Positions 26,156 to 50,715 of a DNA stretch of 64,000 nucleotides are shown here, one piece after another. A model generated the notes under the pieces. That model saw only the letters and a list, made by a program, of their open reading frames with translations. It was not told where the DNA came from and did no database searches. The stretch lies in NCBI RefSeq assembly GCF_036785885.1, contig NC_092322.1:12112466-12176465 (forward strand), written 5' to 3'. The stretch is from Coffea arabica. Its lineage: Eukaryota; Streptophyta; Magnoliopsida; Gentianales; Rubiaceae. The stretch's first letter is position 1. Every line of letters starts with the position of its first letter. A program made the translations under genes and the position numbers.

Positions 26156-26495
26156 TTCCTACTCCTGGGGTAGTCATTGGCCATCGCCTCATGAATCCTG
26201 CTAGTTCAAACCTATACCAAACCTCCTGGCAACCAAAAGTCCCACCCCTCCCCATATTTTGTTTCTTCCTTGGTTGTTACTCACACCACCGATGTCAGAA
26301 GGTTGCTTGTCAATTAAGGTGGCAGTTCTTTCTCCTCTTTTTTGTGACAGGATATATAAAGATTTACATATACAAAATGTGAAATTTTAACAGAAGTTAC
26401 ATTTTGAAACTCTAATATATTCCAAAACTGAGATAAGTCACGTTCAATCCATTGAATATCTTTGCATGTTTTCAACCATTTGAAACTAAAGAAGC
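26156..26495. other. Intergenic stretch ahead of the copia element
   Basis: No gene. The block from about 26404 (GAAACTCTAATATATTCC) is repeated, diverged, right after the copia element at 28185, so the element landed between two old tandem copies of a segment of about 80-90 bases. Confidence 0.55.
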
Positions 26496-26660
26496 TGAAA
26501 CAGAGAGGCATTGACTGGAGCAATTTTTGTATTATATCTCATTCATTGTAACCCAATATATATACACGTATGGCAGCACAAAGGTGGGAGAGTTACACCA
26601 TAAATAGGAACCTACACTAGATAGAGTTCTATATGTAATCAGCAGCTAGAGTTCTACCTT

Positions 26661-27886: not shown

Positions 27887-28184
27887 TGAAATATAGAGAA
27901 GAGGAAGAATTTGCTTGAGATGGAGGGGTGTGACCCAATGTTTAAAGAGCCCGGTATAGCTCTAATACCATAAAGAAGTTGAAACAGAGAGGCATTGACT
28001 GGAGCAATTTTTGTATTATATCTCATTCATTGTAACCCAATATATATACACGCATGGCAGCACAAAGGTGGGAGAGTTACACCAGAAATAGGAATCTACA
28101 CTAGACAGAGTTCTATATGTAATCAGCAGCTAGAGTTCTACCTTCTATCTAGTATTAGTTGGTGGAGGAAGAGGATTCTTATCA

Positions 28185-28927: not shown

Positions 28928-29667
28928 ATTTGTGTAGACACCAAATTTTGAACAATTTTATGTAGCATCTATTTCATGATTTTCATTTTAGATTGCTTGC
29001 ATTTTAGTTCGTTATTGTGTGTTTTGTACTATTAGTTGTTATGATATTTTAGTTTTATTCATTTTCGCCCTTTTAGTTGACCTATTTCATTTGCTATTTA
29101 TTCTTATTTACTTTTAGTTTTAGTTTTTAGTTTTAGCTTTTAAGTTTAAAATTAGCATAGAGTTTTTAGAAAAAAGAAAAGGAAAACATCAAAAATATGT
29201 TTTAGTCATTTTGTTTTTATTCAATGCTTTCTTGAAAGAAAAATGAAAATGAAAAATCATAAAAAAGGAAAAAAAAGAAAATTAAAGAAAAAGAGGAAAA
29301 GGAAGAAAAAATTCAAAAAAAATAGGCTTTAGTTGGATTGGAAAAATGAAAAAAAGAGAAAAAGAAAAAAAAAAGAAGAAAGGAAAAATTGTTCACAAAA
29401 ATATGTTTATTTCTTTAAATTCAATCTTTGGGCACTTTAGTTATTTTTATTAAGTTATTTTGAGAAAAAGAAAATGATGAAAAGAGAAAAATTGAAAGTT
29501 AAAAAATGGCCATTTTTGTTTAGTTTTTTGTTTAAAATTATTTTTGTTTTGTTATTATTATTGTTACCTGGTTTGTGTAATTTTGTTATTATTATTATTT
29601 ATATTTTATTTTATCATTTCTGTAATTATTATTGTAAAAAAAAAAAAGATATATTTTGTCGCGGCAT

Positions 29668-29693
29668 GCACGCTGCAATTTTTTGCAGCGTGC
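29668..29693. promoter_or_regulatory. Perfect 11-bp hairpin in the LTR upstream of the TATA box
   Basis: GCACGCTGCAA and its exact reverse complement TTGCAGCGTGC are separated by four T. The same structure is in the 3' LTR at about 43471-43496. It lies about 100 bases upstream of the TATA box and is conserved in both copies. Confidence 0.8.
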
Positions 29694-29795
29694 AAAGGAC
29701 ATTCATAAGAGACAATTGGAGGGTTGGATTTCACAGGGGTAACAAGCCCTCATCCTCATCGTTGAGATGAGGGTTTTAGGAGATTTGGAAATGGA

Positions 29796-29802
29796 TATAA
29801 AA
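29796..29802 (+). promoter_or_regulatory. Candidate LTR TATA box
   Basis: TATAAAA within GGATATAAAAGGT, in the first fifth of the LTR; the 3' LTR has the same motif near 43598. It would place the transcript start, and the U3/R border, near 29830. Confidence 0.6.
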
Positions 29803-32635
29803 GGTAAAAGAGCTACAGCCGCAAGGGGGGTTTTTCGGGGGGGGGGGGGAGAGTCAAGAACGGTTAAAAGAAAAACTGAGAGCTGAGAGATTAGAGAGGG
29901 AAGGAAAACATCGAGGGTTTTGTGAAGGAGCAAGGACCAGAAAATTAGTTGATGGCTGAGAGTAGAATCGAAGGGACGGCTGCATAAGAAAACTAGAGAG
30001 AAACCGAAAGAGAGTTTGGAAGAGAGGATAGAGAGGATAGAAAACAGACGGCAAAAGGTTTGAGAAAGCAGGAGAGGTTGACGGCTGAGAAAAGCAAGAG
30101 AGTTGGCAGCCACAAAGTCTGGAAAAGAGGAAGGAAAAGAGGAATAGAGAGTTTGTGAGGGCGTGAAGATAGGGAAAGCAAGGGAGATCCTCGGTTGGAA
30201 ATTGCAGAAGGAAGCAACTGGACCTCCATTCTGTATCAGTTGACATTCTTTGGAGCAAGGACGCCCTATTCATCTTCCCAGATCCTGATTTTCCCTTTGA
30301 GGGAGATAAAGGTAACGCCTTTCATTTGTTTCTCTGTCCATAGATTATAAAAAATCATGTTAGAAAGGTTGAAACTTTGCTGCAATGCTTGCTTCTGTTT
30401 GCCCTCTACCATGAATGTTGTGCTTGTGAATCTGTCGGCGGTGGGAAAAGAACTAAAACTATGGTTTTTATATTGTGAATTTTCCAAGTAAAAATCTGCA
30501 AGTGAGTTTAATTTGAAGTTGTTTTCAATCATGTGAATGTTTTTGTTCATTCTTCATGTCCCGGGTTTGGCATCAGGAAAGTCGCAGGTTTTTATTCTAA
30601 TATTATGTATGTTTGGATGCTTGAGTTTGCTTTGTTTGAATCACTGAAAATGAAGTTGACATTTGGAGTAAGCAAAAGGACCTATCTGTTTTTCCTTTGT
30701 TTACAAACGTCGAAAAGACAGAAATCCAAGGAGTTAAAGTATGTTGCATATGTTATTATGTTTTGCTGTTTTCTTGCCGCAACCAAGACAACCAAGCAAT
30801 TTTCGTCACCTGGTTTGCTTGGAAGAAGATTAGGTGTTAATTTAATGATGGGTTTTAGCAATAAAAAGCTTAGATAACATGATTTTTGTTGATTTGGAAA
30901 TGAGTTGGGATTTTCCGGGTTCGATTCTTGCATATTTGAGTAGTTAGTGTTACGTTACCTCGCTGCACTTTGTGTTTAAGAGTGACTGATTGTGTCTCTC
31001 CTCTCCTTTGTTTTACATTCATTCATTCCAGTTTTTGGACAAATAGGGGACTGCATTAAATCATTTCCTTGGTATGTTAAAAGTGTATAAGAAACTAAAA
31101 GCTGCTGCATTTTTCTTCACCATTTTCTTTCTCGAAACAGCTGCTGGGTTGAGTTTCTCTTTGTATGTTTAGATGCTAAGATCCAGCCGGTTTTTGGTTT
31201 TAGATCAAAGTTTTGATGTTGGCTAAGCTTGTTTCCATTTGAAGTTGTGTTTTGAGGCTAAGACCCGTGCTTGAAAAATGAAAATCGGTGACTAGTCTAG
31301 TGCAGAATTTTCTTAGCAAGCTGCCGAGAGTTTTGCAGGAGCTGCCATAGTAATCTTGCATGTTTTAGTTACAGAATTTTTGCAGCAAGAGGTTTTGATC
31401 CTATGGTCACTCTCTGCTTTGTTTCATTATCATTTTTGCGATTAGTTTTTGTGCATGATGATTGGTGTTAAGGAAGCTAATAAATACGGAATTTGAAGTT
31501 TCGTGTAGGATGTTTGGGTGATCAATAAGAAACATTGGCAGAAGTATAGTAACCAGAAATTTGGAAATCTACTACGTTGCATGCATGGAACAATTCAGAA
31601 AAATTACACCTTAACCCCTCAGGTTTCACCTTATGTTACTATGACCCAACAAATAGAATAATTTCTTCAATTGGATCCCTGTGATTTTTGCAGTAATGCT
31701 ACAAAAGCCCACCAATACTCTAAATTCTTGTAATTGGGTCATGAAATAGTTGCATTTTAACTCTTGCTTGACCTTCCTCGGCTCTTGGACTTTCAAAATT
31801 CCTAAAACGTCTCAATTGACTTTATTTGATTAGATTAGTGGTTGCATTTGGGACCTTGGTTCACGATGGAGTCCTAAGTTTATTACAGTTTGAACCGTTG
31901 TTTGACATTCTATCGTTTGGAAATCTTTGAGACTTTTGAGCGTTTTCACTTGGACTTGAATGACTTCGTGTGTTTGCAATTAGATCCTAAAACATTTGCA
32001 CTTTTAACCCCCTAAGTTTCCCCCTTGTCTTGTTATGGTCCAATTAGTTGAATAATTTAATCACTTTTGTCACTCTAGAATCTTAATTGCTTTTGGTTTG
32101 CTTTGACGTGATTTTGGGTAAGACGTTTAGTGAATTTTAGGATGCATTTTGAGGATCAATAAGTTTTAATAGAATTTTTTAGCTTGGATTTGTGTTCTAA
32201 TCACATTTTTGCATTTGATTTTTATGGGGCTCATCTTAAGTCATCAATCTTGGTATTTTATTTTACTCTCTTTTCAGAAATTTTCAGTCCTTCTAATTAA
32301 GTCCCTCTTGCATTAATTGCTTTGTACATGGTTGGTTTGTCTATGTAAATACTTTAGTTGACTCAATTTAGTGTTTAACCTTCATTTTTTATACTTAATT
32401 TTTGTTTCATGTGATTATTTGATAATTTAAGTGGTACCTTGACCTTTTTATTATTTTGGAGGGTAAGTTAGTAATTTCACTACGTTAGGGCGTCGCTTCA
32501 AGGGAGGTACACTCTATCCTTCATTTGCACTTCATTTGACCCTACGTGCTTCTACGTGTTATGTGAATATGCATGCCTACTCCGCTTTCCTTACCTCCTT
32601 GCATGCATTTACTTGCTTTTTACTTTTATTTAAGT

Positions 32636-32805
32636 TTTATGGGGTATGTGTACACCTCTTGGCTTGTAATAGATAGGGCTCGGAGAGCATCTGGTCCATT
32701 TCCCCTTTCCCTTTATGTTTTCACGGGGTATGTGTACACCTCTTGGCTTGTAATAGCTAGGGCTCGTAGAGCATCTGGTCCATTTCCCCTTCCCCTTGGT
32801 TGCTT
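32636..32805. repeat. Tandem duplication inside the LTR
   Basis: GGGGTATGTGTACACCTCTT and the following 70 or so bases (AGAGCATCTGGTCCATTTCC) occur twice in a row. The same pair is in the 3' LTR at about 46439-46608, so the duplication predates the last transposition. Confidence 0.9.
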
Positions 32806-34182
32806 GCTTTTGTTGTTACATGTTAAATTGCTTTAGTAGGCTCTTGCATCTAGTCGAGCATGCTACGTGCTACGTGTTTACAAGCGTTTTGGCATGTCAA
32901 CTTGCTTTCATAACCATGAATGAATGGAATTGATGAATGTACGTCACCACACTAGTCCAACGCTAGTTGTGGCTCAGTATTTCATTAGGAATTCATAGAA
33001 AGGGCTAGTCCAACGCTAGACCCTTAGGGATTTCCCCTCATTAGCATATCATTTGCTTGTTCACCACATATCACGCATTTTCCTTAGTTTTATCATTTGG
33101 CATGATCCTCGAACCCGTTTTCCCTCCATTTTAGGATTTTTGAATTTCATGCTAGTTATAGGGTTCATTTTGCTTGAGTGTCCCCTTCTGATAAGGGAAA
33201 CGAGCGAGTGTGGCTACTCGATAGCCTTAGCACGCTAGTTTCGCCTTCTAATCAAAGGGAAAATCAAGTCGAAAAGTTAGGAGTCCACCCCCGTACCCGA
33301 CTTGTTGCATTCCTCTAGGGTCATACTTTCATTTTTATCACCTACATACTATTTTAACCACATTTTTTCACATTTCTTAAACCATACTTTCTCACTACAT
33401 TTTTCTCATCACGTGCTCAATTTCACCTCACAAATGGAATTCCACCTTACCTTATATATCTATTATTCTATTTTTACACACTTGCACACAAAAAACATTT
33501 GAATTTTATACAATTTCACACATGCACCTTTTTATACATTCGCACACTTGCACTTACATTTCTTGCATCTTTCATACACTTTCACACTTGCACACTTAAA
33601 TTTGAACTCTCATTTGCATTAATCTACCTCTATGAGGTTTTCCTTTGTTGGCCGCCACAATTCATGTGGTTTGGGACCAAAAGCCTCACAAGAGACATCG
33701 TAGAATTTAGGATTGCATTTTCCTTTCCGTTTTGCATTCATATAGTCATATCCAACGTGCAATACATACATTGGGTAGAAAATTAGGAAAGGTAAGGTTA
33801 AGTCGCGCAACTAGCCTTGGCTAGGTCAAAGGGGTGCCTTGGATTCTATCCTTGTCTTCCCCTTTGTCAAACGTGACTCCCGAACCTTTTTCTTTGTCTT
33901 ACGTGGACTAGGAGTCGTTTTTAAAAGAGTTTTACTACTTTGTCTTTAAAAATTTATTTTTTAGGTGACTTGGTACACCTTAATCATTACCAAGTGGCGA
34001 CTCCAATTTCTCATTCAAAAACCCTTTTAAAAAACTATTTTTTGGGTCAAATCGTCGCTTTTTCCCAAGTCCCATTGAGACCCATGTCTTTTCAACTCAC
34101 AAAAATCATTCTCCAATCACAATTGAATCAAAAACATCTTTCTCAAACCATTTATTTATTTATCAAAAAATGGGGCGCGACA

Positions 34183-36806
34183 GTTGGCGACTCCACTGGG
34201 GGCTTCCTAAGTGGGTGCAAGCATTTTTGACTTAACCATTCGTTTCCTTTTTCTACCCTTTCTATGCATGGCATGTGGATATTAGGATTGCATTTTTCAT
34301 TTTTTTTAGGACCTTTTGTCTTATATACGTAATCAAACCAATCCCTCGACTCACGAATGTATGTTTGAATGAATGTTTATTTGTTATCTCGCGCTTGCAT
34401 TGCATTTTGGGAGGTATGGGTCACCCTAGAGCCTCGCGTTGGTTCTTGACCCTTCCCCTCCAAACGAGCACTAGCATACGAGCATACGCTTTACTTCTCT
34501 TATCCCTTTTATTTTTTTTAGTGGCTTGTCACGCCACTCCACCCTATTAGGATTAGGTGACTCACTTGGACATGTGATCACGACACGATGTGTGTGTAGC
34601 ATGTTCCAATGGGTCACTCAATCTTCCGCTTAAAGCTATTGGTTGATAGCCTTTAGCTTTTGGTCGAAGATTGAGGTTTTGATAGATTCACTCAAACACG
34701 TAGCCGTGACACGATGTGTGCGTAGCGGTGTTTGGGGAATTGCTCGAGCCACCGACAAAGAACCTTGAGATTGATGACCCTTGGTTTCTAAGTCTGAAGG
34801 CTCGGGGGCCTATGACCTATCGAGTCTAGATGCATTAGTAAGCCAAGCCTCATGCATCCATATTAGAATTGCCTAGGGTAGAGTCAGCCTTATCCTGAAC
34901 TAGGGACACTATTCACGAGGGGAGGGGTCCCAACCCTCTTTCCTTATTTATCTTTATTGCCTTTTATATTATCTAATTGTCCAAATGTGTTATGTGTTAT
35001 GTGTTGAACTCACGTTTCCTTGTCTCTTGTCTTTTGCATTCACAAACATTAGAAAATAAGAGGTCCGTCATGACTTTCTTTTAGAACCTACCCTTGTAGA
35101 TAGGCTATTGCACGTCTAAAGATTTTTGTATATTGCATTCATAGATTAATGATTGAATATCATTCTAGGCCTACCCTGGCAGATAAAGGATTCCTTAGGT
35201 CACGTTTCATTTCGAATTGCATTTTTTCCTGCTTTAATAACTGGCATCATGCATAAACCCTAGAAAGGGAATGCCACTTAGGGGATCCCGTGTTAGGAAT
35301 AAGCCACCTTGTGTCTCGGATACTTAATCCAACGAGACTTGCACGTTTACATTTTTGTACCATCCAAAGGGGTAGTGCACAAGGTAAGGTAGGATCCAAT
35401 CATTTTCGTAGAGTGATCTTTGGAATATGAGCATCTAATAATCACTTTTTGGCCATTTTATCAAAAATTGGTAAAAATCCCTTGCGTGAAGGACATTAAT
35501 TTGAAGAAATTCACAAATGATTCCTCCTATTGAGACGATAAATAAATTGAGGCCAAATAGTGATTTTAGAAAGTTCATAGACTAATTTTCTGAAACCACC
35601 AATGGCCGGCCGATTCAATCGATCCATTTTGTCAATTCATAATCAATTTTGAATAAACCATTCATTTGACCAATTTACCCTTTTTAGGGTCATCCGGTCA
35701 ATTTGGAATAAGTCGTCAATTCATTTGACCAATTTACCCTTTTTAGGGTCATCCGGTCAATTTGGAATAAATCGTCAATTCATTTGACCAATTTACCCTT
35801 TTTAGGGTCATTTGACCAATTTACCCTTTTTAGGGTCACCTGGTCGATTTTGAATAAATCGTCAATTCATTTGACCAATGTACCCTTTTTAGGGTCATTC
35901 GGCCAATTTTTCAATAAATCACTAATTCAATTTCATTCATTTGATCAATTTACCCTTTTAGGGCGATCTGGTCAATTTTGAATAAATTCTCAATTTCATT
36001 CAATTCATTTGACCAAGTTCTTTTTTTTTAGGGCGATCCGGTCAATTTTGAATAAATTTCTCAATTTCATTTAGTTCATCCGATCAAGTTCCTTTTTTAG
36101 GATGATTCGGTCAATTTTGAGTAAGTTTTAAATTTCACTCAATTCATTTGACCCGTTTCCCTTTTTAGGGTAATCCGGTCGATTTTTAATAAATTTTCAA
36201 TTTCATTTGACCAATTAGAGTTTCAATGTCGGATTTCGAATTGAGAAACCTAATCAATTTTGAGAAAATCATCCATTGCATCCAGCTATTTGATCAGTTG
36301 GAATTTTGATCCGCGCTTCATTGAGAAAATTTGTCAGCGAATTCCAATCTCTTCGATAGGAAGTTCGTCAAGGTCAAACACGTGCGTTTTTGCAAAATCT
36401 TGTATCGATCAAAAGTGATCAATCCGTTCGAACGTTGACCTCATTTTTAACAAATGACTCTTGCCATTCCAATTGATCGAATTTTTCAAAATTGTTTTTC
36501 ACTCAAGGAGTTGATCAGATCCATCAGGTATTGTATAGTGCCTACTCTAGTGGATTGCATTTTCATGCTAGGCCTACCCTTGGCACAAAAAGGGTTCCCC
36601 CATAGGACATGCATCCGAATTTCTTGGATATCTACTAACTCTTGCCTTTTTCTCTTTCTTTTCTTTATTTTTATTGTAATAACTAAGCGAGGGTTAAATC
36701 TAAAGGTAATCTTTCAAAAATTCTCAGGTAATATTTAAACATAACTTCTCGTCGAAGCCCCATCATAACACGATCCCGTAGTCAAGCTCAGAGGAGTCGT
36801 GTAAAC
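34183..36806 (+). other. Leader region of the giant LTR element, with primer binding site and tandem repeats
   Basis: Begins with the primer-site match at 34185-34201. The middle carries paired phrases such as CACGACACGATGTGTG/CGTGACACGATGTGTG (34578, 34706). From about 35640 to 36200 a motif TTTACCCTTTTTAGGGT with CCGGTCAATTT recurs at intervals of about 25-60 bases in at least six decaying copies. No conserved protein frame before gag. Confidence 0.75.
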
Positions 36807-38614
36807 ATGAGTTCACAACCGGAACAAGCAGATAGGTCTACTACTACCGCTCAACCCGAGACTGCGAGTTTGGGGGTTCAGTTGACTGAGATGCTTACTA
36901 AGTTTGGTGAAATGGCATCTGAAATGGCATCGCAAAAGAAGTTAATCGACGAGCTCGTTAGTAGCGGAGTGCAGCCCGAACTTGCGCCCATCAAACAACC
37001 GGATCCGAACCATTCATCATCCCTCCTACTCAAACCACCGTTACTCCACCTTTCCTTATACCACCCGAAGGAACTTTCACATATCCCACCATACATTTGC
37101 CATACACTTACCCTCCTGGTCCTTCATTTTTCCCTGCTCATATGCAAGACCCACAACCCCAACTTACTTCAAACATACCACCAGAGCTACATACTTTTTG
37201 TCACACTGCTGCTGAGCCATTCCTACCAGACCACGCTGCTCAAACCAAGCCAGAAATGGGGGAATATTCCGCTCCCATTGATATAAAGCTGCTCAAACGC
37301 CTGGACCGTTTTGATGAGTTTATGAGGAGGAGTCAGGGTTTGAACAAACAAGGAGTGCTGGACTATGATGAGCTTTGTCTCTTTCCAAATGTGCAATTGC
37401 CTGAGGGGTTCAAAACTCCGAAGTTTAATAAATACGATGGTACGGGCAATCCCAAGACACACATCCGATTGTTCGCCAACAAGTTGGGTAGGCCAACAGA
37501 TGATGAAAATCTGCCTTTGAGGCTATTCCCAGAAAGTCTGGAGGGGGATGCACTCGATTGGTATTCCAAGCTGAAACCCGAAGAAACGAAGACCTGGCTT
37601 GACTTGTCCAACGCTTTTGTAAAGCAGTACGAGTATAATTGCGAGTTGGCTCCAACACGAACCACGTTGGAAGGGACAAAGAGGAAGCCATCTGAAGATC
37701 ACAAGACTTATGCCAAGAGGTGGAGGAAAATAGCTGCAAAAGTCGAGCCACCAATGACGGAGGACGAAATCATACGCACTTTCATTAAGGCACATGATCC
37801 GCCGTACTTTGAAGAAATTTTTCGCATGACTGGATGCTCATTTGCCGCAATTGTTAATAAGCTTGAGGAATTTGATGATTTTGTGAAGGCTGGGAAGATT
37901 GTTAATGTCTCTGCCCTCAAATCCCAGTTGGATGCCTTGCAAAGCCAAGGTAGTAATGGGAAGAAACAACAATCCAAAAAGCAAGAGGAGGAAACTGCTT
38001 TTGTCTGGAATCGAAACCCTGTTCCAGGACCCAGACCTCGACCACACTTTACCTACTCAAACCCTTACCCTTACTATTTAAGCCCTCAATCTGTTTACCA
38101 CACCAATACCACTCATCCTCGACCTTGCCCTAATTACAATAACTCGCCTATGGCCCCTTTTCAAATATCTCAATCTCACTTCCAACAAGTTCGACCCCGA
38201 CCCCCTTACAATCAACAATTTCCTCCACCAAATAGATCCACCTATAATTACCCTCAATCCATTGAACCCCAAAGTCGAAATCGTTCTCGCACCTTCACTA
38301 ACCTAGGCAGGCCTCTGGACCAATTGTATGAACAATTAAAAGCCGCTGGTAGAATCAGTGTACTTCCTCCTCCAGCTCACCCTCATGGTGTTCCTGCCGA
38401 CTACAATTCGCAGTCCACTTGTGCCTATCATTCGGGAGCACCTGGACACTCAACCGCCGATTGCAGAGCCCTTAAGCATAGAGTTCAAGACATGATTGAG
38501 GCAGGGGAAATAGTGTTAAGGGGAAAAGGTGAACAAGGACCAAGTGTAAATACAAACCCCTTTCCCAAACACAAGGACACCTTTGAAGCATCCACTACAA
38601 ATGACGAAATTTGA
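36807..38614 (+). pseudogene. Tat/Ogre-type Gag, one frameshift near its start
   Basis: The ATG at 36807 opens a frame (MSSQPEQADRS) with a short helical segment, readable to about residue 68. Near 37009-37010 a single lost base shifts the frame. The main part then runs open to the stop at 38612-38614, about 530 codons. It contains the gypsy Gag core: LDRFDEFMRRSQGLNKQGV, PKFNKYDGTGNPKTHI, LPLRLFPESLEGDALDWY, TWLDLSNAFVKQYEY and IIRTFIKAHDPPYFEEI. A Pro/Tyr-rich linker follows, then a variant zinc knuckle C-x2-H-x5-H-x4-C (CAYHSGAPGHSTADC). Apart from the shift it is well preserved, suggesting recent activity; a base-call error could also explain it. Gag would package element RNA, with pol supplied from elsewhere. 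Confidence 0.85.
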
Positions 38615-38929
38615 AAATCCCGAAGGAGCTCTGCGCAATTTGGATGGCTGACTATCTTCCCTTACGAAGGGAATTTCGATAAATCTAAGGGTTGTCATTT
38701 ACTAAAGTTCACGAAAACTTTTTCTTGCATATGTAAATAGTTTCATGAAAGCGTTTTTTTTGCAATCGAATTTTGTTTCGTTTCTGCTTTGATTTGGAGT
38801 TTCATGAAATGCTCATTTTGATTATTTGTTTGTCTGATTATGATTCTGATTTTTGAGCTGGCCAAAGGTGAGGTTATTGACTCTTTGAATATCACTGTTC
38901 TAGAATTTGATGAAACCCTTTTGAAAATT

Positions 38930-39200
38930 CCTCCATTAAAAAACCCTCATTGAGAAATTCCTTCATTGAGAGAGCTTTCATTGAGAAAAATCATTGAAAA
39001 ATCCCTTCATTGAAAATCACTTCGCTGGAAAAACCCTCATTGAGAAATTCCTTCATTGAGAAATCCTTCATTGAGAAAGCTTTCATTGAGAAAAATCATT
39101 GAAAAATCCCTTCATTGAAAATCACTTCGCTGGAAAAATCCTTTCATTTGGAAATTCCTTTATTGATAAATCCCTTCATTTGAGAAAATCCCTTTCCAGC
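38930..39200. repeat. Decayed tandem repeat in the giant element
   Basis: Short words ATTGAGAAATTCCTTC and AAATCACTTCGCTGG recur. A block of about 90 bases is present twice, at roughly 38935-39030 and 39025-39140, with further part copies. Confidence 0.8.
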
Positions 39201-39644
39201 CAGGTTGAAAGTTGATTGGTTAAAGCAGTATCATTAACGATTGATTCTGATTGATGGAAAGTAGTTGAATGCTATGTGCCATGACCAACGTTGTCAAAAC
39301 GCATGGCCTATATTCATAACAAAAGGATCCGCCACCGATCTTCTGAAGAAGGAAACAAAGTGCTAAAGTGATGAAAGACGAAGTCGAAGGCAAATTTGCT
39401 TCAAATTGACAAAGCTTATTGGGTATTCAAAGGAGAGATGGAAGGACAGACATTCCCTCAACCTATCAACTCGGATATGTGTAAGATGTTCTTTATTTGA
39501 TTATGCAAAGTTTCTTTTAGGAAATCATGCAAGAGACGAGGCTAAAGTCAGGCCATCTTCCTTTCCAATCAAAACATTTCATCCCTAGTCATCCCCTTTG
39601 AACTATCAGAACAATAATTTTCGTTTGGCAACTCCTGAGAATTG

Positions 39645-39900
39645 CAAACCCCACACTGGGGCAAACTCATTTTGAAAAGTGATCAGAAAGAAAAGGAAAA
39701 CCCCACACTGGGGCAAATTTATCTTTGAAAGAGATATGGGAAAAGAAAGAACCCTACACTGGGGCAAACTTATTTTGAAAGAAAAGTGAAAAGGAAGAAA
39801 GAACCCTATACTGGGGCAAATTTAGTTTTTTTTTTTTTTTGAAGAAAAATGCAATGAAGAAAATGCAATGAAGAAAAATTCAAGCAAGCTGGGGCAAATT
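39645..39900. repeat. Spaced copies of an ACTGGGGCAAA motif
   Basis: CACACTGGGGCAAA or close variants appear about five times at intervals of roughly 45-75 bases (near 39652, 39705, 39758, 39810 and 39887), each followed by A/G-rich sequence. One more stands near 41138. The motif resembles the element's polypurine tract. Confidence 0.8.
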
Positions 39901-41289
39901 TTCCTCGGTTTCGTTCAAAATTAGAGATAATTTCAAAATGATGCAATCTCAGGTTATTTCACACCTTTCATCAAACCTGCTTTCAAGCCTCAACTTTTCT
40001 TGAAAAACACCCCACCTGACCTCATTACAAAAGCCCAAAGTCCTGGCTTTCGTCACTTGCTGCATTTCTATTAGGGATTTTGCTAATCAACTGGCAGGTG
40101 ATGTCCATAATGCCTTCGTTTAAGTTTATAAGGGAAGCGCATTTTACTGATGCCAGCAATCTTCAACTTACATTCCTGAGTCGACTATGGTTGAGCTCTT
40201 CCATTATTTCATTAGGTGAAAACCCACAAGGGCACCTCAAGAGAGAAAAAAAAAAGAAGAAGAAGAAAAAAAGAAAAAGAAAAAAAAGAAAAACCAACAA
40301 AAAGGGTGGGGGGCAACCTTGGTGAAAACCCGAATGGGCGCCAAGGTAGGTTTCTGCAATGAGAAAGCACAAAGAGGAACAACTGGTGGTTTGGTCCATT
40401 TAGATTTTCTTCTCATTTTTGTTATACCTCTGACAACATTGAAATCCGGAGCTAAGATATCCAAAGATTTGAATATGACATCTGTTGGCCAAAAGCCGTG
40501 TCATTTTGTAAAAAATATTCTTTTGTAAATACATTCTTAGGAAACTCGTTTTTTCCAAATTACTTGCATTCATGGCATTTTTTGTAGAATTTAAGCACAA
40601 ATGGTTAGGTGTGCATTCTTGTGCATATTCATTTTTACATGACATGTGAATTTTCTTGCATACCTCATTCTTTATCATTGAATTGTGGTAAATGACAATC
40701 CCTGTGGTTTATTTCAAAAAGTATACTTGGATTCAGTCATCCTTTGGGAACAGTTGAAATCCAGCCAAGCCAGCTACACAAACTTCATAATATCGCAAAG
40801 CATATACCTGGTCAGTTTGAAAATCGGAAAAGCCTTAGGGCGAGGAATCCAACTCAATCGGCTGTCGTAGCAAAAGTTGAAAATGGCATCGGAAGACTCA
40901 TGTTTACACGATTCTCAAAGGAAAACGGATCAAATGATGGTGGCAATTTCTTTTTCATTTGCAGAAAATTGCAGGCACAGATGAAAGTAATCACACTTCA
41001 CACCGAAATCGATGTCGGAAAAAGTCCTCCGGTGAACAAAGGCAAATCGAAAATGTTGCAAGCAAATTTGATCAAAAGGTGCAACAACATGGCGATACAA
41101 AGTCAACTTTGGATTCAAATTGCAAAAATTCAACATACTGGGGCAAATTAATTTTTTGGAAAGATTCTCAAAAGTCAAAAAGAAAAGCAAAAAGAAAAGA
41201 AAATCATCAATCAAAAAATCAAATCAAATTTCATCACGACAGGCTCAAGTTTAATCCCACTGTCTGATTGTCAAAGCATTTCATTTACA

Positions 41290-42345
41290 TTGCTATTGGA
41301 GCTGGGTTTGTCCCGCCAGTAAGCATTTCATTTTGCATTTGCCACCAGCCGTTGGGTTTGTCCCACTGGTGAGCCTTTCATCTTCATCGCCGCTAGCCGT
41401 TGGGTTTGTCCCACTAGTGTGCCTTTTGATTGCATTTGCCACCAGCTGTTGGATTTGTCCCACTGGTGAGCCTTTCATTTTCATTGCCACCAGCCGTTGG
41501 GTTTGTCCCACTGGTGAGCCTTTCATCTTCATCGCCGCTAGCCGTTGGGTTTGTCCCACTAGTGTGCCTTTTAATTGCATTTGCCACCAGCCGTTGGGTT
41601 TGTCCCACTAGTGTGCCTTTTAATTGCATTTGCCACCAGCCGTTGGGTTTGTCCCACTGGTGAGCCTTTCATCTTCATCGCCGCTAGCCGTTGGGTTTGT
41701 CCCACTAGTGTGCCTTTTAATTGCATTTGCCACCAGCCGTTGGGTTTGTCTCACTGGTGAGCCTTTCATCTTCATCGCCGCTAGCCGTTGGGTTTGTCCC
41801 ACTAGTGTGCCTTTTGATTACATTTGCCACCAGCCGTTGGGTTTGTCCCACTGGTGAGCCTTTCATCTTCATCGCCGCTAGCCGTTGGGTTTGTCCCACT
41901 AGTGTGCCTTTTGATTACATTTGCCACCAGCCGTTGGGTTTGTCCCACTGGTGAGCCTTTCATCTTCATCGCCGCTAGCCGTTGGGTTTGTCCCACTAGT
42001 GTGCCTTTTAATTGCATTTGCCACCAGCCGTTGGGTTTGTCCCACTGGTGAGCCTTTCATCTTCATCGCCGCTAACCGTTGGGTTTGTCCCACTAGTGTG
42101 CCTTTTAATTGCATTTGCCACCAGCCGTTGGGTTTGTCCCACTGGTGAGCCTTTCATCTTCATCGCCGCTAGCCGTTGGGTTTGTCCCACTAGTGTGCCT
42201 TTCATCTGCATTCGCCGCTAGCCGTGGGTCAGTCCCACTAGTGCACATTTCATTTTGTTCAGCCATTGGCCGTGGGTCAGTCCCACTAGTGCGCACTTCC
42301 TTTTGTTCAGCCACAGAGATCAAATCTCCCTTTTGGTACAAAATT
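41290..42345. repeat. Minisatellite of alternating 48/49-bp half units (97-bp higher-order unit)
   Basis: About 21 half units in a row. Two kinds alternate: one with GCCACCAGCCGTTGGGTTTG and CACTGGTGAGCC, the other with GCCGCTAGCCGTTGGGTTTG and CACTAGTGTGCC. Together they give a 97-base period (units start near 41723, 41820, 41917, 42014 and 42111). Around 41577-41626 two half units of the second kind sit side by side, so the array has slipped there. Outer copies are more diverged than the middle. Because 97 is not divisible by three, the repeated peptide-like frames here are not genes. Confidence 0.95.
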
Positions 42346-42404
42346 TGAACTACCCCGAGGTAAAAACTCAATTTATTGTTTAAACCTTCCCAGTGAAGTC
42401 CCTT

Positions 42405-42640
42405 TTTAAATTTCCGTTCGGGCCAGTCCCGTTTAAATTTCCGTTCGGGCCAGTCCCGTTTAAACTCCTGTTCGGGTCAGTCCCGTTTAAATTCTTGTTC
42501 GGGTCAGTCCCGTTTAATTCCTGTTCGGGTCAGTCCCGTTTAAATTTCTGTTCGGGTCAGTCCCGTTTTAAATTCCTGTTCGGATTAGTCCCGTTTCATT
42601 TTTCATATTCGGGTCAGTCCCGTGTTAGAATTCTTGTTCG
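42405..42640. repeat. Second minisatellite, about 27-bp unit
   Basis: A unit GTTCGGGYCAGTCCCGTTTA plus a short variable part is repeated about nine times with small length changes, ending just before the 3' LTR. The shared GGTCAGTCCC word also occurs at the end of the neighbouring 97-base array, suggesting a common origin. Confidence 0.9.
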
Positions 42641-42734
42641 ATAGAATCTTTTGCAGCCCAATAACACAGGTAAGTATTTGGTGTCTACTTTTTTGTCTCA
42701 AGTTTTTTCAAAACTCAAACAAAGAGGGGCAAAC

Positions 42735-45700
42735 TGTAGACACCAAATTTTGAACAATTTTATGTAGCATCTATTTCATGATTTTCATTTTAGATTGCTT
42801 GCATTTTAGTTCGTTATTGTGTGTTTTGTACTATTAGTTGTTATGATATTTTAGTTTTATTCATTTTCGCCCTTTTAGTTGACCTATTTCATTTGCTATT
42901 TATTCTTATTTACTTTTAGTTTTAGTTTTTAGTTTTAGCTTTTAAGTTTAAAATTAGCATAGAGTTTTTAGAAAAAAGAAAAGGAAAACATCAAAAATAT
43001 GTTTTAGTCATTTTGTTTTTATTCAATGCTTTCTTGAAAGAAAAATGAAAATGAAAAATCATAAAAAAGGAAAAAAAAGAAAATTAAAGAAAAAGAGGAA
43101 AAGGAAGAAAAAATTCAAAAAAAATAGGCTTTAGTTGGATTGGAAAAATGAAAAAAAGAGAAAAAGAAAAAAAAAGAAGAAAGGAAAAATTGTTCACAAA
43201 AATATGTTTATTTCTTTAAATTCAATCTTTGGGCACTTTAGTTATTTTTATTAAGTTATTTTGAGAAAAAGAAAATGATGAAAAGAGAAAAATTGAAAGT
43301 TAAAAAATGGCCATTTTTGTTTAATTTTTTGTTTAAAATTATTTTTGTTTTGTTATTATTATTGTTACCTGGTTTGTGTAATTTTGTTATTATTATTATT
43401 TATATTTTATTTTATCATTTCTGTAATTATTATGGTAAAAAAAAAAAAAAAGATATATTTTGTCGCGGCATGCACGCTGCAATTTTTTGCAGCGTGCAAA
43501 GGACATTCGTAAGAAACAATTGGAGGGTTGGATTTCACAGGGGTAACAAGCCCTCATCCTCATCGTTGAGATGAGGGTTTTAGGAGATTTGGAAGTGGAT
43601 ATAAAAGGTAAAAGAGCTACAGCCGCAAGGGGGGTTTTTCGGGGGGGGGGGGGGGGGGAGAGTCAAGAACGGTTAAAAGAAAAACTGAGAGATTAGAGAG
43701 GGAAGGAAAACATCGAGGGTTTTGTGAAGGAGCAAGGACCAGAAAATTAGTTGATGGCTGAGAGTAGAATCGAAGGGACGGCTGCATAAGAAAACTAGAG
43801 AGAAACCGAAAGAAAGTTTGGAAGAGAGGATAGAGAGGATAGAAAACAGACGGCAAAAGGTTTGAGAAAGCAGGAGAGGTTGACCGCTGAGAAAAGCAAG
43901 AGAGTTGGCAGCCACAAAGTCTGGAAAAGAGGAAGGAAAAGAGGAATAGAGAGTTTGTGAGGGCGTGAAGATAGGGAAAGCAAGGGAGATCCTCGGTTGG
44001 AAATTGCAGAAGGAAGCAACTGGACCTCCATTCTGTATCAGTTGACATTCTTTGGAGCAAGGACGCCCTATTCATCTTCCCAGATCCTGATTTTCCCTTT
44101 GAGGGAGATAAAGGTAACGCCTTTCATTTGTTTCTCTGTCCATAGATTATAAAAAATCATGTTAGAAAGGTTGAAACTTTGCTGCAATGCTTGCTTCTGT
44201 TTGCCCTCTACCATGAATGTTGTGCTTGTGAATCTGTCGGCGGTGGGAAAAGAACTAAAACTATGGTTTTTATATTGTGAATTTTCCAAGTAAAAATCTG
44301 CAAGTGAGTTTAATTTGAAGTTGTTTTCAATCATGTGAATGTTTTTGTTCATTCTTCATGTCCCGGGTTTGGCATCAGGAAAGTCGCAGGTTTTTATTCT
44401 AATATTATGTATGTTTGGATGCTTGAGTTTGCTTTGTTTGAATCACTGAAAATGAAGTTGACATTTGGAGTAAGCAAAAGGACCTATCTGTTTTTCCTTT
44501 GTTTACAAACGTCGAAAAGACAGAAATCCAAGGAGTTAAAGTATGTTGCATATGTTATTATGTTTTGCTGTTTTCTTGCCGCAACCAAGACAACCAAGCA
44601 ATTTTCGTCACCTGGTTTGCTTGGAAGAAGATTAGGTGTTAATTTAATGATGGGTTTTAGCAATAAAAAGCTTAGATAACATGATTTTTGTTGATTTGGA
44701 AATGAGTTGGGATTTTCCGGGTTCGATTCTTGCATATTTGAGTAGTTAGTGTTACGTTACCTCGCTGCACTTTGTGTTTAAGAGTGACTGATTGTGTCTC
44801 TCCTCTCCTTTGTTTTACATTCATTCATTCCAGTTTTTTGGACAAATAGGGGACTGCATTAAATCATTTCCTTGGTATGTTAAAAGTGTATAAGAAACTA
44901 AAAGCTGCTGCATTTTTCTTCACCATTTTCTTTCTCGAAACAGCTGCTGGGTTGAGTTTCTCTTTGTATGTTCAGATGCTAAGATCCAGCCGGTTTTTGG
45001 TTTTAGATCAAAGTTTTGATGTTGGCTAAGCTTGTTTCCATTTGAAGTTGTGTTTTGAGGCTAAGACCCGTGCTTGAAAAATGAAAGTCGGTGACTAGTC
45101 TAGTGCAGAATTTTCTTAGCAAGCTGCCGAGAGTTTTGCAGGAGCTGCCATAGTAATCTTGCATGTTTTAGTTACAGAATTTTTGCAGCAAGAGGTTTTG
45201 ATCCTATGGTCACTCTCTGCTTTGTTTCATTATCATTTTTGCGATTAGTTTTTGTGCATGATGATTGGTGTTAAGGAAGCTAATAAATACGGAATTTGAA
45301 GTTTCGTGTAGGATGTTTGGGTGATCAATAAGAAACATTGGCAGAAGTATAGTAACCAGAAATTTGGAAATCTACTACGTTGCATGCATGGAACAATTCA
45401 GAAAAATTACACCTTAACCCCTCAGGTTTCACCTTATGTTACTATGACCCAACAAATAGAATAATTTCTTCAATTGGATCCCTGTGATTTTTGCAGTAAT
45501 GCTACAAAAGCCCACCAATACTCTAAATTCTTGTAATTGGGTCATGAAATAGTTGCATTTTAACTCTTGCTTGACCTTCCTCGGCTCTTGGACTTTCAAA
45601 ATTCCTAAAACGTCTCAATTGACTTTATTTGATTAGATTAGTGGTTGCATTTGGGACCTTGGTTCACGATGGAGTCCTAAGTTTATTACAGTTTGAACCG

Positions 45701-47985
45701 TTGTTTGACATTCTATCGTTTGGAAATCTTTGAGACTTTTGAGCGTTTTCACTTGGACTTGAATGACTTCGTGTGTTTGCAATTAGATCCTAAAACATTT
45801 GCACTTTTAACCCCCTAAGTTTCCCCCTTGTCTTGTTATGGTCCAATTAGTTGAATAATTTAATCACTTTTGTCACTCTAGAATCTTAATTGCTTTTGGT
45901 TTGCTTTGACGTGATTTTGGGTAAGACGTTTAGTGAATTTTAGGATGCATTTTGAGGATCAATAAGTTTTAATAGAATTTTTTAGCTTGGATTTGTGTTC
46001 TAATCACATTTTTGCATTTGATTTTTATGGGGCTCATCTTAAGTCATCAATCTTGGTATTTTATTTTACTCTCTTTTCAGAAATTTTCAGTCCTTCTAAT
46101 TAAGTCCCTCTTGCATTAATTGCTTTGTACATGGTTGGTTTGTCTATGTAAATACTTTAGTTGACTCAATTTAGTGTTTAACCTTCATTTTTTATACTTA
46201 ATTTTTGTTTCATGTGATTATTTGATAATTTAAGTGGTACCTTGACCTTTTTATTATTTTGGAGGGTAAGTTAGTAATTTCACTACGTTAGGGCGTCGCT
46301 TCAAGGGAGGTACACTCTATCCTTCATTTGCACTTCATTTGACCCTACGTGCTTCTACGTGTTATGTGAATATGCATGCCTACTCCGCTTTCCTTACCTC
46401 CTTGCATGCATTTACTTGCTTTTTACTTTTATTTAAGTTTTATGGGGTATGTGTACACCTCTTGGCTTGTAATAGATAGGGCTCGGAGAGCATCTGGTCC
46501 ATTTCCCCTTTCCCTTTATGTTTTCACGGGGTATGTGTACACCTCTTGGCTTGTAATAGCTAGGGCTCGTAGAGCATCTGGTCCATTTCCCCTTCCCCTT
46601 GGTTGCTTGCTTTTGTTGTTACATGTTAAATTGCTTTAGTAGGCTCTTGCATCTAGTCGAGCATGCTACGTGCTACGTGTTTACAAGCGTTTTGGCATGT
46701 CTACTTGCTTTCATAACCATGAATGAATGGAATGGATGAATGTACGTCACCACACTAGTCCAACGCTAGTTGTGGCTCAGTATTTCATTAGGAATTCATA
46801 GAAAGGGCTAGTCCAACGCTAGACCCTTAGGGATTTCCCTTCATTAGCATATCATTTGCTTGTTCACCACATATCACGCATTTTCCTTAGTTTTATCATT
46901 TGGCATGATCCTCGAACCCGTTTTCCCTCCATTTTAGGATTTTTGAATTTCATGCTAGTTATAGGGTTCATTTTGCTTGAGTGTCCCCTTCTGATAAGGG
47001 AAACGAGCGAGTGTGGCTACTCGATAGCCTTAGCACGCTAGTTTCGCCTTCTAATCAAAGGGAAAATCAAGTCGAAAAGTTAGGAGTCCACCCCCGTACC
47101 CGACTTGTTGCATTCCTCTAGGGTCATACTTTCATTTTTATCACCTACATACTATTTTAACCACATTTTTTCACATTTCTTAAACCATACTTTCTCACTA
47201 CATTTTTCTCGTCACGTGCTCAATTTCACCTCACAAATGGAATTCCACCTTACCTTATATATCTATTATTCTATTTTTACACACTTGCACACAAAAAACA
47301 TTTGAATTTTATACAATTTCACACATGCACCTTTTTATACATTCGCACACTTGCACTTACATTTCTTGCATCTTTCATACACTTTCACACTTGCACACTT
47401 AAATTTGAACTCTCATTTGCATTAATCGACCTCTATGAGGTTTTCCTTTGTTGGCCGCCACAATTCATGTGGTTTGGGACCAAAAGCCTCACAAGAGACA
47501 TCGTAGAATTTAGGATTGCATTTTCCTTTCCGTTTTGCATTCATATAGTCATATCCAACGTGCAATACATACATTGGGTAGAAAATTAGGAAAGGTAAGG
47601 TTAAGTCGCGCAACTAGCCTTGGCTAGGTCAAAGGGGTGCCTTGGATTCTATCCTTGCCTTCTCCTTTGTCAAACGTGACTCCCGAACCTTTTTCTTTGT
47701 CTTACGTGGACTAGGAGTCGTTTTTAAAAGGGTTTTACTACTTTGTCTTTAAAAATTTATTTTTTAGGTGACTTGGTACACCTTAATCATTACCAAGTGG
47801 CGACTCCAATTTCTCATTCAAAAACCCTTTTAAAAAACTATTTTTTGGGTCAAATCGTCGCTTTTTCCCAAGTCCCATTGAGACCCATGTCTTTTCAACT
47901 CACAAAAATCATTCTCCAATCACAATTGAATCAAAAACATCTTTCTCAAACCATTTATTTATTTATCAAAAAATGGGGCGCGACA
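42735..47985 (+). repeat. 3' long terminal repeat (5,251 bp)
   Basis: Near-identical to the 5' LTR. Differences I saw include a 7-base deletion near 43688 (GAGAGCT missing), a longer G run (18, 43641-43658) and scattered single-base changes. It ends at 47985, directly before the ATTTG target duplication. Confidence 0.95.
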
Positions 47986-48205
47986 ATTTGAATATCTTAT
48001 CGGGCATTTTACCTAAAAATCTAATATTTATTAGAAATTTCAAAATTAGTTCAAATTTTTTAATTCTTCCTGAAGTATAGATTTCGCTTTTTGAATTAGT
48101 GACTTCAAAGTCACATTTTGAGATGATGATGCGACTTTAAGTGACTTTATAACAAGCAAATTAAAGACAAATGATGACTAAAAATAAACTAACTAAAGTC
48201 TCCTT

Positions 48206-48695
48206 TTTTTTTGATAGAAAACTAGAGAAATTCATTAAGGTGAGGATAAGTCTGCCAAAATTGCGGAAGAAAGAAAAGGTGGTGGAGAAGAACTCCAACT
48301 ACAAATATTTGAAATAGACCTGGCATTCCTAACTAATAAGTGGACAGGCACATTTGCCTGCCTGGGGACCCAATTAGCCTCCCATGCGGCGAAACTCTGT
48401 AAACTAAGAAGGATATAGTCTAACAGCACCCTGTAGGTTGAGTCATCAGATTCCATAAGCTTAATCATGTTAATGATCTTCAGAGAGTCGCCCTCCAAAA
48501 TAATCTTGGGCTCCTTCCACTGAAGCAGTAAGGAAATTGCAGTCTTTGCAGCATAAGCTTCGATGACCTCAGGGGAGAAGATACCGAAGATTTTGTGAGA
48601 GGAACTTGCAACAAAATTGCCCCACTCATCCCGCACAACAACTCCAACACCGGAGCAACCATATTTGGAGAAAACTGCACCATCGAAGTTGGCCT
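48206..48695 (-). mobile_element. 5'-truncated LINE with RNase H domain and poly-A tail
   Basis: An insertion of 490 bases is flanked by a perfect 12-base target duplication TAAAGTCTCCTT (48194-48205 and 48696-48707). On the minus strand it ends in an A run, as LINEs do. Its frame encodes a plant-LINE RNase H: FDGAVF (first Asp), GVVVRDEWGNF, EVIEAYAAKTAI (Glu), ILEGDSL (Asp), W.PRQANVPVHLL, with the stop at 48235-48237. The 5' end is cut inside the RNase H domain, the usual result of incomplete target-primed reverse transcription. Confidence 0.88.
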
Positions 48696-48938
48696 TAAAG
48701 TCTCCTTAAATGGCGACTTAAAGCCACAATTCGAAATTGTGACTATGAAATCACACTTTCAAATGACAAAATCTTTACTTTTGGAAGAATTAAAACTCCT
48801 ATATGCGAAGGACAAGGCGAGTGCCTGTTGCCCCGCCTCCCGCCCTGTTTTAACCCATTTCTATCCCTGCAGGGCGGGGGCACCCTTAGAAACATCAAAT
48901 AACAACCAGCAGAAAAAATTTTATTGGTGTCGTCCCAA

Positions 48939-50715
48939 TTAATTAGTTGATTTCTTTAACACCTTAGCCGTCAGACCATGCTTCATACGAAGAATAATAG
49001 AGGTTGCAGGGGTTGCCACTGGTTGATCCTTTGCTATCTTGGTACCTACATGAAATTGGTAGTTGAACAAACTTGTAGCAGCAATAGCTTTCAGTCTAGC
49101 AAAAGCCAACTCTTTCCCCGGGCAAATCCTGGGACCTGAGCTGAATGCTACGAACCTGTTGGATGTCAAAGGCTTTAAACACCATGTCTTCGAAATCCAT
49201 CTCTCTGGCTAGAATTCAAGACAATCTTCTCCCCATATCCACCTCATTCTTGCCATAGCATTAGTACAAATAACAACTCTTTTGTTCGCTTTCACATGGT
49301 GACCGCTTGGAAGCAAGTCAGCTTTGATGCAAGTTCTCGACTGAAAAGGACTTGATGGAAAGAGCCTTAATGTTTCACACATGGCTGCATGGAGATAAAC
49401 AAGTTTTTTTAACTCTTTTAGGTCGAAAAATATACGCGTACGTGATTCAGTTGCCCTTAAGTTTACCGCAAGTTCTTCTCTAATCTTGGATTCAACAATG
49501 GGGTTCTTCGAAAGAAGCCAAAAAACCCAAGATAAAACTGGTGAAGCTGTATCCGTTCCTGCAAATATAATTCCTTTTACAATTTCTCTCATAGTGTAGT
49601 CTTGCTCCCCAACTGATTCCAGGAACTCCTCCTCATTGTAAAAAAATGTGATTGCATCTAAACTTTCCTCACCATGCTCGGATTTGGAAATATTGCTGGT
49701 TTGCTCTTTCCAAATTTTGATGCATTTTGCTGCTGCATCATCCAGGACTTCGCAAGCTTTACTGAGTCTCTTCTCTGCACCAACTCCCAGCCACCTTTGG
49801 AACATCCAAAATCTTTCTGGGAGAATATGGCGAAGCAGTATCACATCACTAGCATCATGCAAGGCTTCCAAAACAACATCTTTTGGCAGTCCAACGCAGA
49901 GGGAGCCGCGATTTTTGCCACTGATCATCATGAATGTTGCATCAAGCATAGCCCTTTGGAACACATCTTGCAAATCTACCGTAACCCTGTGTTCAGAAGC
50001 ATGATCCAAAACTGGAACAAGCCCTTTTTCAAGAACTTCCTGGTTTATCCTAACCGTGAAATGTTGCAACTGTTGGTTGTGGAAAAAAGCGAGAGCGAAT
50101 TTCCTATGAAACCTCCAATCCTTTATGTCCGCGGCAAATAGGATCTGCCCGTAGGCCGAGAAAATCCTTCTGGTGTCGGGACCCTTGGGATAATTGGATA
50201 AGTTTGTGCTCAGTAAATGCTGCACGTTCGCAAGATCAGCGGTGAGAATCATATCCCTGTTGCCAAACCAAGCACTTGGGATCCTCGGTGACATGTTTTC
50301 TATGTCAATCCAATGCCACCAATAATATTGTGCCAAGTGTCATGTTATTATTTACATTTTAATTTTTTAATAATTTAATTTGGCTTGATTTAACACAAGG
50401 GTAAATAATAACATGACACTTGGCACAATACTATTGGTGACATTGAATTGGCATAGAAAACATGTCACCGACGATCTCAAGTGCAAACCAAGGTCCTTTA
50501 AACTCAAAGGTGCCGCCACAGAATTCTATAACTTCAGTGACGTTGTCGAATATAAAACTGGTTGGCAGCAGCATGGACAACGTCCCAATGAGGGGCCAAT
50601 TACGGGGTTGCCCATTCCTCGCGCAGAAACAAAGAAAGAGTAGAAAGGCAACCGCTGCTATGATTACTAGAGCTATAGAATTTGAAAATGCAAATATGTA
50701 GGCATTTGTTGCCAT
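48939..50715 (-). pseudogene. CYP96A-type cytochrome P450 pseudogene
   Basis: A single-exon P450 of about 500 codons, with start ATG at 50713-50715 and natural stop at 48939-48941. It begins with a membrane anchor (ALVIIAAVAFLLFLCFC), the hinge NWPLIGTLSMLLP, GTFEFKGPWF, then SNYPKGPD. The I-helix oxygen motif is AGTDTASP, the ExxR motif ETLR and the haem loop FSSGPRICPGKE. Intronless structure and sequence fit CYP96A, whose known member MAH1 hydroxylates wax alkanes. Two lesions destroy it. A foldback element of 211 bases (50273-50483) splits GPWF from GNRD, with a 9-base duplication of target. A TAG at 49209-49211 replaces the codon before PERWIS. Everything else is open, so loss was recent. 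Confidence 0.9.
50273..50483. mobile_element. MULE-like foldback MITE inside the P450
   Basis: A 211-base element made of two 83-base inverted arms (50273-50355 and 50401-50483) and a 45-base AT-rich spacer. The ends read CACTTGRGATC. Exact 9-base duplications CAAACCAAG flank it (50264-50272 and 50484-50492), the size made by Mutator-type transposases. Removing it and one duplicate restores a continuous P450 frame, which proves the insertion border. Confidence 0.93.

Follow-up and report, generated by a model that had tools for sequence, protein, structure and literature searches.

Structure of the element

The window, a 64,000-nucleotide stretch of the Coffea arabica genome, contains a 19,053-base LTR retrotransposon on the forward (+) strand, set between unstranded ATTTG target-site duplications (28928–28932 and 47986–47990). 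Its 5′ LTR (28933–34182, 5,250 bases, TGTAGACACC...GGGGCGCGACA) and 3′ LTR (42735–47985, 5,251 bases) make up 10,501 of those bases (55%), and show 17 substitutions over 5,242 aligned columns, along with five gap events (divergence 0.0033). The primer-binding site at 34185–34201 (TGGCGACTCCACTGGGG) is complementary to the 3′ end of tRNA-Arg(ACG); tRNA-like sequences whose 3′ end pairs with it occur at 13 places in the genome, and ARAGORN called tRNA-Arg(ACG) at both of the two places submitted. A purine-rich tract, AAAGAGGGGCAAAC (42721–42734), directly adjoins the 3′ LTR. Tandem repeats occupy part of the leader (35660–36207), where pol-bearing partners of the element carry ORF1, and further arrays lie towards the 3′ end, with about 10 copies of a 97-bp unit and an adjoining 48-bp repeat (41303–42313) followed by about nine copies of a 27-bp unit (42397–42640). 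An earlier sequence-only reading of this locus had described paired LTRs of these lengths exceeding half of the element, intact duplications, a primer site and a polypurine tract, all of which are confirmed here.

The same reading reported one gag. A capsid gene is present, with a Retrotrans_gag domain (PF03732, Pfam E 4e-12) in the main open frame (36965–38614) and a zinc-knuckle-like motif, C..H....H....C, visible by eye near the C-terminus, but in the window copy this gene is frame-broken. Its N-terminus (Met at 36807; 36807–37010, right edge approximate) is encoded in another frame than the remainder of the gene, and the main frame has no ATG before 37142. Seven of nine fetched siblings have gag as a single open frame, leaving it broken in three of ten copies, window included, while the gag stop position is identical in all ten. 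Given its broken frame, the window copy may no longer contribute Gag. A search of solved structures with gag matched designed repeat proteins alone (best E 0.0085).

Other coding candidates were rejected. Three LTR frames, considered as a possible hidden gene, had no Pfam match at E 0.1. A frame at 40696–41148 (151 aa), also without a Pfam match, is present in copies L019–L024 and absent from L014, C9 and C14, hence it was taken as chance. Weak sub-cut-off Pfam matches in the frame at 40020–40322 (best Peptidase_S49_N, E 0.004) were ascribed to a lysine-rich run. Comparison with Rfam gave no matches at the gathering threshold.

Loss of pol across a gag-only family

None of nine interior frames matched an enzyme domain in Pfam above cut-off, and a query of partner gag-pro plus pol matched the window interior only in gag and in the far C-terminal tail of pol. 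The claim that pol is missing is hence right functionally, but not to the letter, as the interval 38615–41285 holds small decayed remnants (38825–38911, 39208–39288 and 39297–39497). The first resembles the start of the partner pol frame (blastn, 72.6%, E 5e-8); by tblastn this scrap was found in six siblings but not in the window, where the match comes from blastn only. The other two, spanning 39208–39497, correspond to partner pol residues 1114–1140 and 1144–1223, the C-terminal end of integrase, and all eight gag-only copies searched retain this tail in decayed form. An ORF1 match was absent from the eight gag-only interiors searched, some of these stretches beginning inside the leader. The family appears from these comparisons to have lost ORF1, protease, RT, RNase H and the integrase core.

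The genome holds many copies that share this gag-only layout, an outcome that the earlier sequence-only reading had named as support for its claim. The junction between gag and post-gag sequence (38400–38800) recurs at 40/40 scored places, window's own included, with matches of 89–100% identity on 11 contigs; these are the best 40 of 1,766 candidates. Target-site duplications, checked in three copies, are present in both gag-only elements (the window copy and its sibling GO17, whose LTR divergence is 0.0016), while the pol-bearing partner AU14 lacks a matching pair. Some gag-only copies form LTR-interior-LTR-interior-LTR arrays. Two copies of the same group, L017 and L018, are gag-less.

Pol-bearing partners

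Besides ORF1 and gag-pro, the partners have an open frame for RT, RNaseH and integrase, with RVT_1, RT_RNaseH, RVT_3 and rve domains detected in a pol-bearing copy. ORF1 encodes 509 aa in three copies, with DUF7745/PMD in the two scanned, and the partner protease is a sub-threshold Pfam match (E 0.048). Between gag-pro and pol there is a stop and frame gap, a candidate intron. Pol-bearing copies are numerous, RT matches free of stops in the 400-aa query stretch being observed at 103 of 104 scored places, themselves the best of 20,205 candidates. The earlier reading had proposed a search for an Ogre-like partner with shared ends, and pol-bearing copies indeed have the LTR ends, primer site, leader and polypurine stretch in common with the window element.

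By architecture the partner is probably of the Ogre type (Ty3/gypsy, Tat branch), with ORF1 ahead of gag and a possible intron in the gap between gag-pro and pol. One study describes Medicago Ogre families with tRNA-Arg, a 1,527-bp ORF upstream of GAG and a POL intron (PMC2533021), and the 509 codons of partner ORF1 likewise come to 1,527 bases. The window element resembles Ogres in its long LTRs and tRNA-Arg primer; Ogre LTRs are given as 1.9–6.5 kb in another source (PMC6431247), hence LTRs of more than 5 kb are ordinary for this group. It differs in having neither the upstream ORF nor pol.

The window LTRs are a mosaic

LTR pairs were compared in full for the window, one gag-only copy (GO17) and one partner (AU14). 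The window interior and the first ~450 LTR bases match GO17, with 78 sites at 28933–29382 where window and GO17 agree against AU14, versus two where window and AU14 agree against GO17. The LTR core (29483–33199) is instead partner-type, showing 8–12 differences in about 3,710 sites from the AU14 LTRs, a divergence no greater than that between the window's own two LTRs, while GO17 is diverged or unalignable. Informative sites favour AU14 by 82 to 1 at 29483–29880 and by 102 to 2 at 32700–33199, and GO17 by 89 to 1 at 34800–35300. The second crossover lies within 33200–34799, comprising the LTR 3′ end, primer site and leader, which are alike in both lineages. Votes at 33200–34182 are mixed (14 for AU14, 29 for GO17) and the window differs there from both templates at 41 sites, mainly at 33400–33500 and 34000–34100, hence either a third template was involved or the true templates were unsampled. 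The 3′ LTR carries a mosaic of identical pattern. The window LTRs are thus mostly partner-type, unlike those of its gag-only sibling.

Full-length LTR-core matches of ~100% numbered only eight among 40 scored, namely the window's two LTRs and six belonging to three pol-bearing copies. A second, mirror-image mosaic was found at C1:36.8M, and a pol-bearing copy at C1:20.5M has gag-only-type sequence in its first 300 LTR bases (97.7%). Parsimony alone suggests the direction of the swap, and the C1:20.5M copy counts against it.

We consider it highly probable that the window element is a young copy of an old, Ogre-derived gag-only family, copied by its partner and carrying the partner's LTR core. 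The earlier proposal of an element that keeps only its capsid gene and borrows pol is supported, with the qualifications that the gag of this copy is broken and its LTRs are mostly partner-type. On the best reading, gag-only and partner RNAs would have shared one particle when the window copy was made. Within it tRNA-Arg would prime the co-packaged gag-only RNA, partner RT would copy it and partner integrase would insert the product. The minus strand would shift onto partner RNA near the LTR 3′ end or in the leader, copy ~3.7 kb of partner LTR, presumably mostly U3, and switch back to the gag-only template at a distance of about 0.5 kb from the polypurine tract, yielding a gag-only body with the partner's promoter region. 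This template switch would have occurred in the cycle making the window copy, or very few cycles earlier.

Alternatively, the mosaic could stem from gene conversion or crossover among copies already integrated in the genome, and the arrays noted above can come from unequal crossover, although PMC1950507 indicates that template switching can also produce them. We regard exchange at the DNA level as unlikely. With the same mosaic in both near-identical LTRs (17 differing sites) and ATTTG intact, conversion would need to have reached both, and in the C1:36.8M copy, too, the breakpoint is present in each of the LTRs (99.55% over the first 1,555 bases).

Purifying selection on gag between distant copies

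Gag in the gag-only family evolves under purifying selection between distant copies, with omega of 0.158–0.282 between distant gag-only pairs. Bootstrapping of five gag pairs (1000 replicates each) gave omega ≥ 1 in 0/1000 replicates for the three distant gag-only pairs, whereas the interval for the young pair C3/C17 was 0.18–1.50 (88/1000 replicates ≥ 1). The in-frame part of the window gag gave 0.49–0.75 against its closest siblings, from 11–26 changes only. The young pair C3/C17, whose interval includes 1, and the three broken gags among ten would fit a gag that is unused and seems conserved merely through the youth of its copies. Such a reading is improbable, as the protein is kept across distant gag-only lineages (fourfold-site K80 0.44 and 0.65) and the C17/C9 omega interval is 0.12–0.21.

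Fourfold sites were preferred over NG86, which mishandles twofold sites; in comparisons of gag-only with partner gags it gave dS values that were either undefined or near 3. By fourfold sites these gags are separated by K80 of 1.56–1.75, with two of three core-only values undefined. Persisting remnants of the pol edges might suggest a private deletion, in which a single Ogre copy lost pol after insertion, but this is exceedingly improbable: the same junction at 39 further places, counted as already refuting it, and the retained integrase tail are common to the family, and the window gag lies this far from the partner's yet is 99.3% identical to that of gag-only copies L020, L021 and L022.

Comparison with known elements

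TR-GAGs are usually short, and LARDs are large, non-autonomous elements with long LTRs and no coding genes. The window family is LARD-like in size, non-autonomy and LTR length, but keeps gag, open in most siblings. With TR-GAGs it shares two LTRs, a single gag frame (at family level, the window's own being broken) and an autonomous relative presumed to mobilise it, and it is likewise multi-copy and mobile without pol, as seen from the recurring junctions, target-site duplications and low LTR divergence. PMC8704663 reports a new TR-GAG insertion with a 562-aa GAG in Arabidopsis ddm1. That example is ATCOPIA63, whereas the family described here is Ogre-derived and 19 kb long, has LTRs of 5 kb, and has a partner that the sequence itself identifies. 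Autonomous and nonautonomous soybean retrotransposons reportedly swap LTRs (Du et al., Plant Cell, 2010); the window element similarly has a partner LTR on a non-autonomous interior, but its swap seems no older than its insertion. Both TR-GAG elements and LTR swapping are already known, and the mosaic of the window copy is what the present analysis adds; our literature search found no Ogre gag-only family combining TR-GAG layout with LTR swapping.

For non-autonomous plant retrotransposons, the helper is usually guessed by looking for shared ends. Here the LTR core is as near to one pol-bearing subfamily as the 5′ LTR of the element is to its 3′ LTR, and this closeness points directly to the helper. 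Our results also bear on why gag-only elements retain gag, which is selected here despite the loss of pol. Plant substitution rates are 7e-9 to 1.3e-8 per site per year, at which the fourfold distances of 0.44–0.65 between gag-only lineages correspond to roughly 17–46 Myr. It is conceivable, although we lean slightly against it, that an Ogre lineage with gag alone has persisted over millions of years with that gene under selection, repeatedly taking fresh U3 promoters from any Ogre subfamily active at the time. If so, the lineage would stay co-expressed and co-packaged with its helper, and the window copy would capture such a swap in the very transposition cycle that produced it.

Structure and surroundings of the element

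As described in the sequence-only reading, the LTR retrotransposon at 28933-47985 (19,053 bases) is flanked on either side by a 5-bp duplication, ATTTG, and has a 5,250-base 5′ LTR and a 5,251-base 3′ LTR, together with a primer site and polypurine tract. Its two LTRs align over 5,242 sites and show 17 differences (K80 0.00325), corresponding to approximately 0.13–0.23 Myr at typical plant substitution rates. The primer site is complementary to a tRNA 3′ end occurring at 13 genome places, with tRNA-Arg(ACG) found in both of the two places checked.

Other features were observed nearby. A 1.7-kb Copia deletion derivative lies 750 bp from the large element (26487-28184, minus strand) and is TR-GAG-like, with 214-bp LTRs (97% identical); its gag frame (PF14223) precedes a second frame that bears an RNase-H-like tail. 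The tail and an apparent 5-bp duplication, GTTTC, were identified by eye. Just beyond the 3′ LTR, also on the minus strand, are an RVT_3 RNase-H-like frame (48235-48705) and a cytochrome P450 fragment open for 376 codons (49209-50339). The BED zinc finger and DUF659 frames, in that order, at 52766-54388 are hAT-transposase-like. Nested direct and inverted repeats (77–95% identity) occupy 23964-24774, and a run of 38 C occupies 5169-5206.

A gag-only family and its loss of pol

A search of the genome (1.198 Gb, 131 contigs) with a probe from the LTR start produced 3,490 candidates, of which 40 were scored. We examined 15 interiors between paired matches, leaving out the pairs at C11:45.4M and C20:33.0M and single matches. 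Besides the window copy, nine were gag-only (L014, L019, L020, L021, L022, L023, L024, L027, L028), the multi-copy pattern that the sequence-only reading had named as support for its claim, and four were pol-bearing (L009/L010, L011/L012, L015/L016, L025/L026). The remaining two, L017 and L018 on C19, lack a gag match but share the ends and leader of the other copies, forming a third, LARD-like tier within this group. Gag-only tandem arrays (LTR-interior-LTR-interior-LTR) were seen at C1:27.46-27.50M (L020/L021) and C3:33.06-33.09M (L023/L024), with near-constant spacings of about 11.6 and 12.8 kb.

A tblastn search with the partner pol detected neither RT nor RNase H nor an integrase core in eight gag-only interiors, the window included and the tandem twins L021 and L024 left out. 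The reported absence of pol thus holds for the enzymatic core but not for a decayed C-terminal tail: the extreme pol C-terminus was left in all eight (main stretches 37–54% identity), and a 23–24 residue scrap near the pol start in six, being absent from the window and C7 copies. A probe spanning the last 215 gag bases and the next 186 matched across the junction at 40 of 40 scored places, its own included, of 1,766 candidates (89–100% identity, 11 contigs), hence the loss is not a deletion private to this copy. The partner alignment to this stretch ends at 38571. Loss of pol is old and common to the gag-only copies.

Selection on gag

The main gag frame of the window copy (36965-38614) contains PF03732, confirming a gag, but not an unbroken one: its N-terminal part, from Met 36807, lies in another frame, so this gag is broken near its 5′ end. 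Gag is open in seven of the nine siblings (L014, L020, L021, L022, L023, L024, L027) and not in L019 and L028. Open sibling gags span 627 codons stop to stop, or 602 from Met (five measured), and as L020/L021 and L023/L024 are tandem near-duplicates, the seven represent five distinct sequences.

NG86 omega was 0.158–0.282 for mutually distant whole-gag pairs among the C17, C1:27.47M, C3:33.06M, C9 and C1:36.8M copies. Bootstrap intervals were 0.12–0.21 (C17/C9), 0.11–0.22 (C1:36.8M/C9) and 0.20–0.38 (C1:36.8M/C17), with 0 of 1000 replicates at or above 1 in each. Omega of close pairs is uninformative on selection; the C3/C17 interval was 0.18–1.50, and the in-frame part of the window gag gave 0.49–0.75 against its three nearest relatives on only 11–26 changes. 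Fourfold-site distances were 0.44 (C17/C9) and 0.65 (C17/C14), and 1.56–1.75 between gag-only and partner gags. In an unrooted gag tree, the four pol-bearing copies split from the gag-only ones with support of 1.0.

The pol-bearing partner

Pol-bearing, Ogre-type copies of the kind sought as a partner for the family were found, with LTR ends, primer site, leader and 3′ repeat-polypurine stretch common to both groups. Three large copies, at C3:41.6M, C7:22.95M and C1:14.3M (the last about 23 kb, hereafter AU14), each have an ORF1 of 509 aa, a gag-pro frame and a 1,223-aa frame that is open; RT, RNase H and integrase domains were detected in this last frame in the one copy scanned (L010). The protease gave a sub-threshold match only. 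All three are 100% identical over a 400-aa RT query. Of the 20,205 candidates for this query 104 were scored, and 103 of these are stop-free within the query stretch. The fourth large copy, C1:20.5M, contains stops. ORF1 of C1:14.3M and C1:20.5M (L015:1828-3351, L025:4845-6125) gives hits to DUF7745 and to PF10536, the plant mobile domain, which is also found in host genes.

A mosaic LTR and its probable origin

Informative sites of the window copy were compared with AU14 and GO17, a gag-only sibling on C17, and showed clean changes of type. The window is of GO17 type at 28933-29382 (78 sites vs 2), of AU14 type at 29483-29880 (82 vs 1) and 32700-33199 (102 vs 2), and again of GO17 type from 34800 (89 vs 1); between 29880 and 32700 GO17 is mostly unalignable to it. 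The stretch 33200-34182 is mixed (14 sites shared with AU14, 29 with GO17, 41 unlike both), and at 34183-34799 all three are nearly alike (4, 6 and 5 sites, respectively). Across 29483-33199, the window differs from the AU14 LTRs at 8–12 of about 3,710 sites, and its own two LTRs differ from each other at 12. For a 2-kb LTR-core probe, 40 of 3,882 candidates were scored; eight matches were full-length at ~100%, namely the window's two LTRs and six LTRs of the three partner copies, and the other 32 were partial (89–97%).

The GO17 core matched fully in both C17 LTRs, at one C11 place and in both LTRs of a C21 copy that carries the junction of the gag-only type; at C1:36.8M one LTR match was full and the other nearly full. 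The C1:36.8M LTR is AU14-like over its first 1,106 bases (99.1%) and GO17-like over the next 1.5 kb (99.7%), with a gag of gag-only type and an AU14-like 3′ interior (94–98%). This copy is a mirror image of the window mosaic.

The same mosaic occurs in both window LTRs with an intact duplication around them, hence it was most likely already present when the copy inserted. This makes gene conversion between integrated copies the less likely origin. Template switching before insertion would instead involve first-strand transfer between two RNA molecules near R, onto the partner RNA, and then a return to the gag-only RNA close to the polypurine end; both switches in one cycle would account for the mosaic. 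LTR swapping between retrotransposons has reportedly been described in a soybean study. In Onsen, most LTR recombination is consistent with the first template switch having occurred in R, and a single case lies in U3 (PMC5668417).

TR-GAG elements are already known, one having been observed transposing (PMC8704663), sunflower has TR elements with other single proteins (PMC9784723), and a domain is missing from 10 of 63 Retand clusters, most of these being in Poales (PMC11963269). An Ogre-derived gag-only family with partner LTRs was not found in the literature searched, which covered titles and abstract openings, with many journals outside its coverage. As intermolecular switching needs two RNAs in one particle, the mosaic provides indirect evidence that the partner Ogre subfamily supplies enzymes to the gag-only copies.
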